This document shows, one piece after another, positions 2,694 to 61,618 of a DNA stretch of 64,000 bases (position 1 is its first letter; every line of letters begins with the position of its first letter). The position numbers and the translations under genes were made by a program. The notes below the pieces were generated by a model, which saw only the letters and a program-made list of their open reading frames with translations, was not told the DNA's origin and did no database searches. Source of the stretch: Gammaproteobacteria bacterium LSUCC0096 (lineage in GTDB: Bacteria > Pseudomonadota > Gammaproteobacteria > Pseudomonadales > Litorivicinaceae). Where the stretch lies: the NCBI GenBank assembly GCA_008087055.1, contig VIEA01000002.1, forward strand, positions 210,764-274,763. Reading direction: 5' to 3'.

Positions 2694-3381
2694 GGATTCC
2701 GATCAGTTCCTGTAGCTTCGTGATGGTGTGATCTGCAGGAACATCTTCTTCGGGTATTCGAGCATGGGTATTGAACCATACAGCCCTCATCCCGAGTCGT
2801 TTAGCGCCGATCACATCGTGCTCAATATCATCTCCGATATGCAAGCATTCATGCGGTTTGACATTTAATCGCTTCAGCGCTTCTTCAAACATAGCCGGAT
2901 CAGGCTTTGGTTTTGGGAAGTGTTGAGACTGTAATGAGAATTGGAAGTATTGCCCTAATGGCATAGCCATTAAGTCCGCATTTCCATTCGTAATCGCTCC
3001 GAGAGGGTATTCTTTCGACAGGACGTCCAGTGTTTCAACTGTTCCTGGGTAGGGATTTACTTTTTGGCGCTCTTCATAGAACACGCGGAATCCCTCACCT
3101 GCAAGATCTTCAGCTACCGACCGTGTCGCACCTTGATTCTCAAACCAACGAACCAAAGTTTCTCTGCGAACCACGGTGAGGTTGTGCGCGATGTGAGGTT
3201 GCTCTTCAACGATCTGTTTTCTCACAGCGCGAAACGTTTCAAGGCTGAAGTCTGCCATCCAAGCGGCTGGTGTCAGACTGCGTAAGTGAGCTGCCATGAC
3301 ATCTTCGGCACCTAGAATAGAGAGATCTGTTTCCCACAGGGTGTTATCGAGGTCAAAAGTCAGTGCGCGAATTGATTTCAT
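2677..3381 (-). CDS. yigB: HAD-superfamily hydrolase, YigB-like (FMN phosphatase family)
   Basis: A 234-residue HAD phosphatase: nucleophile motif DLDNTLWE near the N-terminus, motif II in AITNGNAD, the lysine in PKPKPDP and the acidic motif HIGDDIEHD near residue 180. In E. coli the equivalent gene next to xerC is yigB, which dephosphorylates FMN. Its ATG overlaps the xerC stop codon by four bases, so it is the last gene of the lptM-lysA-dapF-DUF484-xerC operon. The symbol rests on position plus family resemblance. Confidence 0.85.
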   Translation of the reverse strand: MKSIRALTFDLDNTLWETDLSILGAEDVMAAHLRSLTPAAWMADFSLETFRAVRKQIVEEQPHIAHNLTVVRRETLVRWFENQGATRSVAEDLAGEGFRVFYEERQKVNPYPGTVETLDVLSKEYPLGAITNGNADLMAMPLGQYFQFSLQSQHFPKPKPDPAMFEEALKRLNVKPHECLHIGDDIEHDVIGAKRLGMRAVWFNTHARIPEEDVPADHTITKLQELIGILKQPD

Positions 3382-57282: not shown

Positions 57283-58611
57283 ATGAAGTATCTAATTCTT
57301 GGTAATGGACCTGCAGGAGTCATTGCCGCGGAAACGCTTCGTAAAGCGGATCCTAAGGGTCAAATCACAATGGTTGGTTCAGAAGATGAGCCGCCATATT
57401 CACGTATGGCAATTCCATATTATTTAGAAGGTAATATCGACGAAGCTGGAACCTACCTGCGGAAGGCCAAAACACACTTCAAACAATTAAAAATCACCAA
57501 TAAAGTTGCTAAGGCAACAGGCATCGATTCAAACGCTAAGACAGTCACGTTGGATGACGGGTCATCTGAGAAATACGATAAGTTGTTGATCGCGACTGGC
57601 TCACATCCGATCCGTCCCCCGATTCCGGGAATCGATTTACCGAATGTGCATACATGTTGGACGCTCGATGATGCGCGCGCGATTGCCGACTTGGCTAAAC
57701 AAGGTAAAAAAGTGGTTCAGGTGGGCGCTGGCTTTATCGGTTGCATCATTCTTGAGGCGCTAGCGAAGAATGGTGTCGATCTGACAGTTGTCGAATTGGG
57801 TGATCGTATGGTGCCTCGGATGATGACCCCAAAAGCGGGTGGCATCATCAAAGACTGGGTGCAGAATAAAGGTGTCCGTGTGGTGACTTCCGCGAAGGTG
57901 GAAACTATTGGCGCTCCCGGCCAAGCCGGAGAGTCAGTTTGGGACTCGATCAAGGGTATGTTTGGTGGCGGATCAACGACTTCAGTTGGTGACGACCAAA
58001 TGACAGTCACGTTGTCTACAGGTGAAAAACTTGGTTGCGATCTTGTGATCATGTCAGCTGGGGTGAAGCCAAACATTGATTTTCTTGAAGACTCTGGTAT
58101 TCAAGTTGCGAATGGGATTTTGACAGATCGTAACATGCAGTCATCGGTCACTGATATTTATGCCGCGGGTGATGTTGCTGAAGCGCCAGATCTGTTTAAT
58201 AACTCTCCTATGGTGTCTGCAATTCAGCCAAATGCTGCTGATCAAGCGAGAATCGCTGCTTTAAACATGGCCGGTAAGTCAGCGGAACATGCCGGAGTGC
58301 TCGCGATTAACGTATTGGATACATTGGGCCTTATCTCGAGTTCATTCGGACAATGGGAAGGCGTCGATGGTGGTGACGGAGTTGAATTATCCGAACCGAA
58401 ATACAATCGTTACATCAGCTTGCAATTTAAAGATGACGTGCTGGTTGGTGCGACATCAGTTGGTTTGACCCAACATGTGGGCGTACTGCGAGGATTGATC
58501 CAAGGACAGGTCAATCTTGGTGAATGGAAAGATGTTTTGATGGATGAGCCGCTGCGGGTCATGGACGCTTATCTTGCGTGTGCTCAAAAGCCTATGGTTT
58601 TGAATGGGTAA
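57283..58611 (+). CDS. aorC: FAD-dependent NAD(P)H oxidoreductase subunit (AorC-like)
   Basis: A 442-residue pyridine nucleotide-disulfide-type flavoprotein: FAD motif LGNGPAGVIAAETLRKADP, second Rossmann motif VVQVGAGFIGCIILEALAKNG, and DIYAAGDVAEAPDLF. An extra Gly/Ser-rich insert (MFGGGSTTSVGD, near residue 225) is present. In Aromatoleum AOR, the AorC homologue links the enzyme to NAD+. ATG 57283 has GAGG upstream. It follows aorB across a terminator. Confidence 0.88.
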   Translation: MKYLILGNGPAGVIAAETLRKADPKGQITMVGSEDEPPYSRMAIPYYLEGNIDEAGTYLRKAKTHFKQLKITNKVAKATGIDSNAKTVTLDDGSSEKYDKLLIATGSHPIRPPIPGIDLPNVHTCWTLDDARAIADLAKQGKKVVQVGAGFIGCIILEALAKNGVDLTVVELGDRMVPRMMTPKAGGIIKDWVQNKGVRVVTSAKVETIGAPGQAGESVWDSIKGMFGGGSTTSVGDDQMTVTLSTGEKLGCDLVIMSAGVKPNIDFLEDSGIQVANGILTDRNMQSSVTDIYAAGDVAEAPDLFNNSPMVSAIQPNAADQARIAALNMAGKSAEHAGVLAINVLDTLGLISSSFGQWEGVDGGDGVELSEPKYNRYISLQFKDDVLVGATSVGLTQHVGVLRGLIQGQVNLGEWKDVLMDEPLRVMDAYLACAQKPMVLNG

Positions 58612-58864
58612 TACAACAGCAACATTGAAGCTGTATGCGAGTCTGTCGGAATTCCTTCCTGCTGGTGCCTTAGATAACAAGGCCCAGATCGAGGTCAGCG
58701 AGTCCGACAGCGTCGCTCGCATCATTGAACAATTTAATCTACCTGAGCGTCTTGTTCACTTGGTACTGGTGAATGGCGTGTATATCGAGCCTGAAGATCG
58801 GCCAAATCGGATTTTAGCTCCGGGTGAAGTCTTGGCTATTTGGCCTCCTGTTGCAGGGGGCTAG
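58604..58864 (+). CDS. MoaD/ThiS-like sulfur carrier protein (AorD-like)
   Basis: An 86-residue ubiquitin-like protein ending in PPVAGG, the C-terminal Gly-Gly that is adenylated and thiocarboxylated. It overlaps the aorC-like gene by eight bases. In tungsten AOR operons a dedicated MoaD-like protein is thought to assist cofactor sulfuration; the MoeB-like activator is encoded two genes downstream. Confidence 0.9.
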   Translation: MGNTTATLKLYASLSEFLPAGALDNKAQIEVSESDSVARIIEQFNLPERLVHLVLVNGVYIEPEDRPNRILAPGEVLAIWPPVAGG

Positions 58865-58866
58865 TC

Positions 58867-59166
58867 ATGTTCGGTGCTGAAAACCTCGATGTCCTCGTCA
58901 GAACCGTATCAGCAACTCCAAAGGAATATATCAGCGGCCTAAAACAAGCGGTTCCTGATGGTGTTGTTGTCGATGGTGATGAAATTACCGTCGAGGCTGG
59001 ACCTGTCTCAATTCATATCGCCATTCAAGTCTTGCCAGATTATGTGATTGCGCTGATGCGCTTACCATCACTGCAAGCGACTTGGACTTTTCAATCAGGT
59101 AGTCACGAAGAGCGTGCCGAATGTTTAAAGCGTATCGATTGGTCGATGAAGCGCGGTGGTGGCTAG
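58867..59166 (+). CDS. Small unknown protein ending in Gly-Gly-Gly, AOR operon
   Basis: A 99-residue protein (MFGAENLDVLVRTVSATP...). I do not recognise a family. It is two bases after the MoaD-like stop and overlaps or abuts the MoeB-like start. It ends MKRGGG; a free C-terminal di-glycine in the same operon as an E1-like enzyme is suggestive but could be coincidental. A short alpha/beta pattern is all I can see. Confidence 0.65.
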   Translation: MFGAENLDVLVRTVSATPKEYISGLKQAVPDGVVVDGDEITVEAGPVSIHIAIQVLPDYVIALMRLPSLQATWTFQSGSHEERAECLKRIDWSMKRGGG

Positions 59167-59167
59167 C

Positions 59168-59914
59168 TTGAACGATGAGCAATTACTTCGTTATAGCCGT
59201 CATATCGTATTGGATGGTTTTGATACGGTCGGCCAAGAAAGGTTGCTTAAAGCCCATGTTCTTATCGTTGGGATGGGTGGTCTTGGTTCTCCGATCGCAA
59301 CCTACCTTGCTTCAGCTGGAATAGGGCGATTAACGATCTGTGATTTTGATACGGTTGATCTATCAAATCTGCAACGACAGATTATTCACAGGGAAAGTCG
59401 ACTGGGTTTCAACAAATCGTTGTCTGCACAAGCGGAAATCAGCGCGATTAATGCAGATTGCATCGTTCACGCAATCACTGAACGCGCGGATATAAATCGC
59501 CTTGATTCATTGATTGATGGCGTCGATGTCGTTGTTGACGCTTCAGATAATTTTGAAACACGGCATGCGATTAACCGGGCTTGCGTTCGATTCTCCAAGC
59601 CCCTCGTTAGTGGGTCAGCAATAAACTATATCGGTCAAATCACAGTCTTTGATTTGAGAGATTCAAAATCACCATGTTATGCGTGCTTTGTTCCAGAAGA
59701 TGCGAGTTCAGGTGAGGATAATTGCAATACTTCTGGGGTGCTCGCATCGCTGACAGGAACGATTGGTTCGATGCAGGCAAGTGAGGTTTTGAATTTACTT
59801 GTCCATGGGCGGAGTCGTCTGGTTGGAAGAGCATTGTTATATGACGCGCTTGATTCTGAATGGAGTCATTATCCGATCATCAAGCAGACTCATTGCTCAG
59901 TGTGTGGTGTCTAG
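59168..59914 (+). CDS. MoeB/ThiF-family adenylyltransferase (AorE-like)
   Basis: A 248-residue E1-like enzyme: VLIVGMGGLGSPIATYLASAGIGRLTICD (nucleotide site), DTVDLSNLQRQ, VDASDNFETR, zinc CxxC pairs (CYACF and HCSVCG) and NCNTSGVLASLTG with the catalytic Cys region. It would adenylate the MoaD-like protein next door. TTG 59168 gives the usual family start (NDEQLLRYSRHI); GTG 59156 is an alternative. Last gene of the AOR operon. Confidence 0.9.
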   Translation: MNDEQLLRYSRHIVLDGFDTVGQERLLKAHVLIVGMGGLGSPIATYLASAGIGRLTICDFDTVDLSNLQRQIIHRESRLGFNKSLSAQAEISAINADCIVHAITERADINRLDSLIDGVDVVVDASDNFETRHAINRACVRFSKPLVSGSAINYIGQITVFDLRDSKSPCYACFVPEDASSGEDNCNTSGVLASLTGTIGSMQASEVLNLLVHGRSRLVGRALLYDALDSEWSHYPIIKQTHCSVCGV

Positions 59915-59957
59915 CTTTCAGCAACCTTGATCATTCCTCTGGTCTAGCTAGTAAAAA

Positions 59958-59974
59958 GGGAGCCTAAGGCTCCC
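59958..59974. terminator. Bidirectional-looking terminator between AOR operon and mini-gene
   Basis: GGGAGCC-TAA-GGCTCCC (seven perfect pairs, three-base loop). On the minus strand it is followed by TTTTT (59957-59953), a clear Rho-independent terminator for a leftward transcript; on the plus strand only TT follows, so it is weaker for the AOR operon. Confidence 0.85.
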
Positions 59975-60026
59975 TTCGCGAAATGGTAATCTGAGCGATC
60001 ACATTTCTGTGAGTTGTCATTCGAGC

Positions 60027-60095
60027 TTAGGCGTTACCCTGAACACGATGATGGCAACCAATATCACTCCAGATTGAACACAATTCACTAGACAT
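60027..60095 (-). CDS. 22-codon mini-gene encoding a Cys/His peptide
   Basis: ATG at 60095 and TAA at 60027 define a 22-residue peptide (MSSELCSIWSDI... then GCHHRVQGNA), with two Cys and two adjacent His. The ribosome binding site AAAGGAGGTG (60110-60101, spacing seven) is the most perfect in the window and complementary to 13 or so bases of the 16S tail. A TTGACA-N16-TATGTT promoter lies 31 bases or so upstream of the start region, and a strong terminator lies 52 bases after the stop. I do not recognise the peptide; its length is too short for standard gene callers. Confidence 0.6.
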   Translation of the reverse strand: MSSELCSIWSDIGCHHRVQGNA

Positions 60096-60133
60096 TGGAT
60101 CACCTCCTTTTAATTTCCGCTTTCGATGCGTTA

Positions 60134-60161
60134 AACATACTGCCTTTCTCGGGTGTGTCAA
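60134..60161 (-). promoter_or_regulatory. Sigma70 promoter of the mini-gene
   Basis: Reading leftwards: TTGACA (60161-60156), 16-base spacer, TATGTT (60139-60134). The predicted start point near 60127 gives a leader of about 30 bases to the ATG at 60095 and a transcript of about 175 bases to the terminator. Confidence 0.65.
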
Positions 60162-60904: not shown

Positions 60905-61462
60905 TTAGGTCGATGATGCGTCAAGGACTTGCTTGATAAACTGGTTCGATGAATCATAGTTGGTGTAGCAATTTTTCATATTGCTTAAACGGCTGTCGGT
61001 ACTCACTTTGGGGAATCCAATCTGGGTCATCGCGTCGACTAAGTCTGCGATGACGGCTTCATACGTTTCGTTAGATTCTTCTCGTACTCTTAAAATTGCG
61101 ACGCAATCCGCGATACTCTCGTTCATTAAATGGTCATAGCTGTTTCGCGGAGGGTGCGGTTGGTCAACATGACCGACTTGATGATGCGCGCACTCATGAA
61201 AATCGATAAATCGTTGGAACGCTGGGGTCGCATTTTCATAATTGACGCGGTAGATCACAGGGTTCCCATTTTGATCGCGGTTTGCCATACCGGCTGCAAC
61301 TTGTCCTCGATCAGATGTGCGCGAAGAAAATACAACGGTCTCGCCAAGATTATTCGTGCAAACGGGTGGAGGAATAACCTCGTAGGCATCACTGGAAAAA
61401 GCGGGTTGTAGATATCCTATTACAACAATGCTCATCAGGATCGATAGCTGAAGTACCCGCAC
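60905..61462 (-). CDS. Exported putative zinc metalloprotease (HExxH)
   Basis: About 185 residues with a signal peptide (RVLQLSILMSIVVIGYLQPAFSS). The motif FHECAHHQVGH contains HExxH plus further His, and ESIADC follows about 20 residues later with a candidate third ligand, a gluzincin-like layout. Two or more Cys outside the motif suggest disulfides. I choose GTG 61462 because AGAGGA is at the correct distance; ATG 61468 lies directly on the ribosome site. Family not recognised. Confidence 0.7.
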   Translation of the reverse strand: MRVLQLSILMSIVVIGYLQPAFSSDAYEVIPPPVCTNNLGETVVFSSRTSDRGQVAAGMANRDQNGNPVIYRVNYENATPAFQRFIDFHECAHHQVGHVDQPHPPRNSYDHLMNESIADCVAILRVREESNETYEAVIADLVDAMTQIGFPKVSTDSRLSNMKNCYTNYDSSNQFIKQVLDASST

Positions 61463-61618
61463 GTCCATTCCTCTAAAAAATCACAGTACTTAGATGGATA
61501 TTAGGGTTTAGGTTGAAAAATCCAGTTGTATGCATTGCGATTTCAAAAGATTCAATGGAGGAGACTGATTCCTTTTTTATAGGGCGTGCTTCTGACGGGT
61601 TCCGTTAGGGGGCGTTCG

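Follow-up and report, generated by a model that had tools for sequence, protein, structure and literature searches.

A probable distant homologue of the Caulobacter small RNA CC2171 with a conserved short reading frame in Gammaproteobacteria bacterium LSUCC0096

CC2171 of Caulobacter is typed in Rfam as an sRNA (RF01867), and the Rfam passage on it mentions no open reading frame (ORF). The family appears in the table of structure improvements in the Rfam 15 paper (PMC11701678), and an RF01867 sRNA, MH_s33, is tabulated in Mesorhizobium huakuii (PMC5596092). Neither passage assigns a function to it. In the literature searched, supplements aside, no paper was found on a conserved frame in CC2171 or on its spread into Gammaproteobacteria. 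The CC2171 consensus in Rfam can be read as a frame of 22 codons, GUG and 21 further codons to UAA.

Translation of small RNAs has been reported before. Profiling in Caulobacter gave two earlier ncRNAs as translated (Schrader 2014, PMC4117421), and in S. meliloti 33% of 54 new sORFs were located on annotated sRNAs (PMC10117765). The dual-function sRNAs, rnTrpL/peTrpL among them, resemble the locus described here in being small transcripts with a short translated ORF, but the peptide is reported to be functional and the RNA to be derived from an attenuator (PMC10117765), whereas at the present locus constraint on the peptide is weak and there is no operon downstream. Pos19 of Rhodobacter sphaeroides is likewise a stand-alone small RNA with a translated ORF; it differs in its longer ORF (150 or 135 nt), in its RpoE promoter and in being reported only from R. 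sphaeroides strains (PMC5036791). The DUF1127 uORF of S. meliloti is a short ORF translated for its effect, with a ribosome binding site that can be masked by RNA pairing and a proposed response to low ribosome availability, but it acts in cis on the downstream gene (PMC12218461). The CrfA sponge and the alphaR8 (Sis) sRNAs of Caulobacter offer a parallel in the pairing of Shine-Dalgarno-like (SD-like) with anti-SD-like sequences between RNAs, but the section on them describes no ORF (PMC12559287).

The present locus is found in a 64,000-nucleotide stretch of contig VIEA01000002.1 of strain LSUCC0096 (the window), on the minus strand at 60161-59953. An initial annotation had described a promoter-like site, an SD, a 22-codon frame and a terminator in this order, and all four are present (Table 1). 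The promoter scan of the window gave one such site and shuffles gave a mean of 0.6, thus the promoter alone is not beyond chance; TTGACA is aligned in 13 of 14 same-genus relatives and replaced by TTGATC in the remaining one. The distance of seven bases from SD to ATG holds when counted from GGAGG, but AAAGGAGGTG itself stops five bases ahead of ATG, and the hairpin described as having seven pairs exists but can form nine, of which seven are G-C. Under the stricter terminator rule of the scanning tool none was listed at this locus. Upstream there is a ChrR-cupin-like gene on the same strand and downstream a convergent ThiF gene. The AOR operon in the window includes a MoaD/SAMP1-like small protein (58604-58864, weak matches) and a ThiF-family protein (59156-59914), and a 187-residue protein without a Pfam match is encoded beside the cupin gene (60905-61468, minus strand). 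Literature searches by sequence, to which supplementary tables may be an exception, led from the motif to 16S primer papers and from six peptide strings to no papers.

Table 1. Features of the locus, in window coordinates
Feature	Position	Strand	Details
Promoter-like site TTGACA-N16-TATGTT	60134..60161	minus	TTGACA 60161-60156, 16-base gap, TATGTT 60139-60134
Extended Shine-Dalgarno AAAGGAGGTGATCCA	60096..60110	minus	ATG starts at 60095
ORF, 22 codons and TAA, peptide MSSELCSIWSDIGCHHRVQGNA	60027..60095	minus	
P1 5' arm (GUGAA), positions +8 to +12, codons 3 and 4	60084..60088	minus	cross-clade covariation
Helix 2 (long), 5' strand within ORF	60063..60075	minus	pairing in 96% of cells, double changes at 8 of 13 pairs
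Helix 3, 5' strand within ORF	60055..60059	minus	partner 60012-60016
Helix 2, 3' strand in conserved 3' untranslated region	59988..59999	minus	
P1 3' arm (UUCGC), one base ahead of terminator stem	59978..59982	minus	cross-clade covariation
Intrinsic terminator hairpin AAGGGAGCC-TTA-GGCTCCCTT, then TTT	59956..59976	minus	sequence; by eye also in 17 relatives

The unit is kept in 14 of 21 same-genus genomes and in all three genomes of the sister genus. With a 254-nt query the former match at 74-94% identity, most matches starting shortly ahead of the SD and reaching the terminator; the latter match over 24-28 nt at the SD and start. All 17 loci keep the SD, the ATG, a frame that stays open for 20-24 codons and, as judged by eye, the terminator, so the conservation of the frame on which the initial annotation had made its gene depend was borne out. 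Seven of the 21 same-genus genomes gave no match, also when three mismatches were allowed or when the model R1 (see below) was used. Three of these seven are at least 95% complete (one 99%) and the others 63-89%. Because the gene is lacking in seven genomes, one of them 99% complete, it is dispensable.

The functional suggestion in the annotation did not survive comparison. From two Cys and a His-His pair, and from the metal-enzyme genes next to the gene, metal or redox binding had been called conceivable. Genes of the AOR operon adjoin it in one of the 17 relatives' loci, where the neighbour is ThiF (G013); ThiF lies 2.7 kb off in a second locus (G009), and three loci have a cupin gene close by. 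The His-His pair is found in 2 of 18 sequences, the window included. Of 15 genus members, 10 have Cys6 and 13 have Cys14, whereas the three sister-genus copies lack both. A metal-binding small protein, judged by conserved Cys/His ligands, was rejected.

In a wider search the pattern AGGAGGTGATCYAATGTCNAG occurred in 20 of the order's 390 genomes and in 5 of 398 of the phylum. In the named genome collection it gave at least 117 stretches from Alpha- and Gammaproteobacteria, a few of them same-genus records, where by our own estimate, assuming even base composition, about one match would be expected by chance in 257 Gb. Among the matches listed are Rhizobiales, Hyphomonadaceae, Ruegeria, Pseudohongiella, other Gammaproteobacteria and one Deltaproteobacteria bin. 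Nearly all exact-pattern loci encode MSS(E/D/G) followed by dissimilar residues, but the pattern forces ATG-TCN-AG, so nothing can be concluded from the conservation of those letters in this set. They are not forced in the R1 set, although the R1 model was trained on the exact-pattern set. This model has 38 rows after exclusions, 35 of them aligned, with the window included and its row by eye two columns off at the closing helix P1. At E≤0.01 it matched 39 of 160 phylum genomes and 26 of 99 genera. Besides the window there are 39 R1 places, of which 29 are given here as loci read, the ten weakest (several <31 nt) being left out. A terminator was reported by our own script in 135 of 142 related loci, with at least seven misplaced or distant.

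Two sets of loci were compared. The stricter one has 26 loci with <65% identity over a fixed stretch and goes with 30 pairs of distinct ORFs; five too-short loci were left out. The loose one has 46 'diverse' loci with unequal stretch lengths, where misplaced terminators let in close relatives (such as L011 of the window's genus), and some genomes were used twice under two ids in its 33 codon pairs.

Clustering of the neighbours across 141 loci showed no generally conserved gene; even the largest cluster of proteins was represented at 16 loci, with offsets that varied, and other small clusters were local only. Nine Pseudohongiella-like loci (such as L044) have a common same-strand downstream gene family starting 99-853 nt past the ATG. 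A phage origin was considered and rejected: phage records gave no match. One IMG/VR contig had the exact motif. This single SD-start motif (L201, 2295-2315, minus strand) is on the viral contig IMGVR_UViG_3300012973_000006 near putatively phage-like ORFs. In another locus (L193) an RNA of CC2171 type is found about 1.2 kb from a tmRNA gene (1504-1680 and 2874-3180).

At gathering thresholds Rfam gave no RNA family in the window and only a tRNA in 18 related loci. With RF01867 relaxed, the window scored 25.0 bits (E 0.23 in 51 kb, E 0.002 in its own genome), which leaves it below the score for family membership, set at 75. The match runs end to end along the model (1-159, by coordinates) and includes the 5' SD motif, the closing helix and the terminator. 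Thirteen of 17 related sources matched at E≤1, the best with 43.6, 42.5, 39.3, 39.0 and 38.9 bits, and one of the four without a match is the same-genus copy L026. When the own-genome search was run at E≤10, matches were also obtained in 10 of 14 control genomes, one of them above the cut-off. Weak matches in two genomes lacking the gene (G001, E 0.026; G006, E 0.06) were rejected, with no SD-start motif and both looking like coding sequence. E-values of this order are thus put down to chance, and with the control genomes matching as well, the weak match of the window is insufficient alone. The homology is instead supported by transitivity, since R1, in whose training the window was included, also picks up loci that pass the RF01867 cut-off. 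When ten R1 loci were scanned with RF01867, six scored 78.8-100.7 bits and three 33.9-68.9, and one was unlisted.

These comparisons support the window RNA as a distant homologue of CC2171, and they do not support formal membership of RF01867. Both RNAs have the 5' motif GAAAGGAGGUGAUCCA, a start codon with the closing helix directly after it, and a terminator, but the arms of P1 differ (GUGAA/UUCGC in the window, CAUUGUC/GACAAUG in CC2171). The initial annotation overlooked the structured nature of this RNA, its relation to CC2171 and the weakness of codon-level selection on the peptide.

The genome's own 16S rRNA ends in UUGGAUCACCUCCUUAA (tail UUGGAUCACCUCCUU), and therefore the SD plus the A of the start codon (AAGGAGGTGATCCAA / AAGGAGGUGAUCCAA) can pair with the 16S 3' tail over 15 nt without interruption. 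The sequence AAGGAGGTGATCC has exactly two copies in the 1.94-Mb genome, at this locus and at the 16S 3' end. In the window AAAGGAGGTGATCC has one exact copy and, with up to two mismatches allowed, three copies compared with 0.39 in shuffles. AGGAGGTGATC was found in all 18 aligned sequences and AAAGGAGGTGATC in 21 of 29 loci from the R1 search. Masking of the SD by internal pairing was rejected: the loose set gave a weak trend (mean z -1.1) and the window none.

In 12 of 26 diverse loci the best match to the 16S tail is found at about +48 to +62 from the ATG, compared with 2 to 5 for three control strings, and in the looser set in 20 of 46 compared with 4 to 8. This match is often UUGGAGCAGCCUC, which is also able to form a small hairpin with a CAGC loop and is absent from the window sequence. 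Copies of the Rhodobacterales type, a label taken from the Ruegeria copy, have exactly 18 codons. A CUAACCGACCCACCUCCU-like stretch between ORF and terminator is seen in L168, L180, L182, L187, L190 and L191 and also in L066; it is weaker in L187 and L191, absent in L179, and might pair with the RNA's own SD. In L066 the best SD partner by energy is elsewhere than the CUAACCGACCCACCUCCU-like stretch that follows its 18-codon ORF.

P1 joins GUGA(N) just after AUGUCNA with (N)UCAC/UCGC just before the terminator. In alignment A1, 93% of its cells are paired and four of its five pairs show double changes. Anchored swaps of the arms reached the observed value in 0 of 2000, both in 42 loci and in the 26 stricter ones; seven loci were named for exclusion, four of which were among the 46 and reduced them to 42, and none of the 26 was excluded. 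At least four of the five pairs form in all 26 stricter loci. A full-length P1 of nine pairs with free offset was not retained, since its observed value of 6.64 is inside the range of the swap control (6.33, maximum 6.67), and the claim is therefore limited to the anchored five-pair P1. By eye the arms are swapped wholesale between groups, with GUGAG/CUCAC, AGAAAG/CUUUC (Rhodobacterales type) and CAUUGUC/GACAAUG (Caulobacter type).

Within the genus and sister genus 28 pairs join the ORF strand to the 3' untranslated region, with 95.1% of cells paired compared with 33-55% in slid controls. Double changes occur in 13 of the 28 pairs (shuffle mean 4.6, 0 of 500) and further pair types number 30 compared with 25.7 (11 of 500), values to be read with the structure having been derived from the very alignment used for its test. 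In one alignment some rows end within the terminator and sister-genus rows are misaligned at P1. The stop codon is in or beside the apical hairpin, a position established for the window's lineage only. As judged from covariation the RNA is structured, with a closing helix from +8 that covaries across clades and, in the window's lineage, a frame that makes up the rising strand of a long hairpin.

The length of the frame is kept to a high degree. All 26 stricter loci reach their first in-frame stop at codon 16-35, and 20 of them at 22-26; the shifted frames have 10 and 5 loci in the wider range and 2 and 1 in the narrower. For comparison, 500 shuffles gave a mean of 9.2 and a maximum of 20 loci with a stop at codon 16-35. 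The stops are TAA (12), TAG (8) and TGA (6). The loose set has its stop at codon 16-35 in 46 of 46 loci (shifted frames 12 and 13). All 29 R1 loci read have a start codon at the same place, where the script sought NTG (16 ATG, 12 GTG, 1 TTG), and 18-27 codons. The kept start codon and frame length make it likely that the frame is translated. These features, together with the extreme SD, would also suit an ordinary small-protein gene whose product is a fast-evolving peptide of 16-35 residues, with the RNA structure tuning its expression. Amino acid patterns give this explanation some further ground: D11-x-G13 is present in 8 of 26 loci (shuffle mean 0.13, maximum 2), positions 5, 11 and 13 exceed shuffles in the loose set and Ser2 is found in 28 of 29 R1 loci. 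However, the codon-level test suggested in the initial annotation gave weak selection on amino acids. The pN/pS ratio is 0.70 over the 30 stricter pairs, hardly under one of the shifted frames (0.96 and 0.72), and in the loose set 0.82 (1.06 and 0.62). Changes at codon positions 1, 2 and 3 number 64, 95 and 92 in the 30 pairs, without an excess at the third position. Over all pairs, which are non-independent, the ratio is 1.24 in the window's genus (shifted 0.77 and 0.57) and 0.83 in the Rhodobacterales type (0.73 and 0.70); in the Pseudohongiella-like group it is 0.53, below the shifted frames (1.12 and 0.72), and the peptide there looks mildly constrained. These ratios are a guide only because RNA pairing limits silent change. 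Pfam and NCBIfam gave no match for the peptide. By these comparisons, amino acid constraint is weak though present and frame length is near-fixed, and being translated may matter more than the peptide product. We therefore regard an ordinary small-protein gene as rather improbable, although it deserves to be kept in mind.

It is also conceivable, but unlikely, that the RNA is a decoy whose SD-like 5' end base-pairs, either sequestering 30S subunits by way of the 16S tail or acting as a sponge for sRNAs that have an anti-SD seed, with the ORF being secondary. The 15-nt complementarity to the 16S tail and the frequency of AAAGGAGGTGATC in R1 loci fit such a role, and the Sis sRNAs, which bear UUUCCUCCCU, are sponged by CrfA through a loop rich in G and A (PMC12559287). 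However, the complementarity extends through UGAUCC, which fits 16S but not UUUCCUCCCU, and a decoy requires neither the start codon nor the fixed ORF length, both of which are kept. A short ORF with RNA structure and a terminator also looks like an attenuator, the DUF1127 uORF acts through being translated (PMC12218461), and the Pseudohongiella-like loci share a downstream gene family. Nevertheless, a leader or attenuator acting in cis on a downstream gene is very improbable: the next ORF is on the same strand in 15 of 23 stricter (diverse) loci and in 58 of 124 among all loci having one, the next gene in the window is convergent, and none of 128 loci had a DUF1127-like ORF within 900 nt when tested by pattern. 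The initial annotation was thus right to describe a stand-alone unit and not a leader peptide. Its fallback, an accidental resemblance to the 16S rRNA 3' end, can be given almost no weight. The SD does match the complement of that end, but SD, start, frame, helix and terminator are conserved across genera.

The reading we prefer, tentatively and at somewhat less than an even chance, is a stand-alone, trans-acting RNA of about 170 nt that is translated mainly for the act of translation and has a ribosome-gated hairpin. Its anatomy and homology, the conserved RNA structure, the kept start codon and frame length and the weak amino acid constraint are backed by the sequence comparisons above; from these we infer the purpose of translation, the gating and the output. 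A translation-gated RNA acting in trans is preferred because P1 begins at +8 and the frame forms the rising strand of the hairpin. The 5' end is short, with an SD able to pair with most of the single-stranded 3' tail of 16S rRNA. It is followed by an ORF of 16-35 codons that P1 closes from +8 and whose strand, in the window's lineage, pairs with the 3' half of the same RNA, and last comes an intrinsic terminator.

A 30S initiation complex must thread the region containing +8. Since P1 starts there, capture by the 16S tail and opening of P1 should compete, and a 30S subunit captured by the extended SD would have to open P1. As the frame is the rising strand of the hairpin in the window's lineage, translation would set the 3' half free: ribosomes on their way to the stop near the apex would strip the 5' strand off the 3' strand, and the exposed 3' half might then pair with targets or be degraded. 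If initiation failed, the hairpin would close. The RNA would thereby act in trans as a translation-gated riboregulator. It is a more doubtful suggestion that the RNA senses free 30S subunits or initiation capacity. The SD, which matches most of the 16S tail, would be the sensing part, and the mini-ORF would exist to have the hairpin kept open by ribosomes. Several clades would also have a mimic of the 16S tail inside the RNA, such as UUGGAGCAGCCUC at about +48 to +62 or, in Rhodobacterales-type copies, ACCUCCU past the ORF; this mimic would compete for the SD and set the threshold.

An orphan Caulobacter sRNA family is now connected with loci spread far more widely across Alpha- and Gammaproteobacteria. 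The comparisons recast the CC2171 family as a structured mini-mRNA with a reading frame that appears to be kept for its length more than for its sequence. If translation itself is the function, the RNA would be a simple device, acting in trans, by which the engagement of ribosomes is linked to the structure of the RNA.
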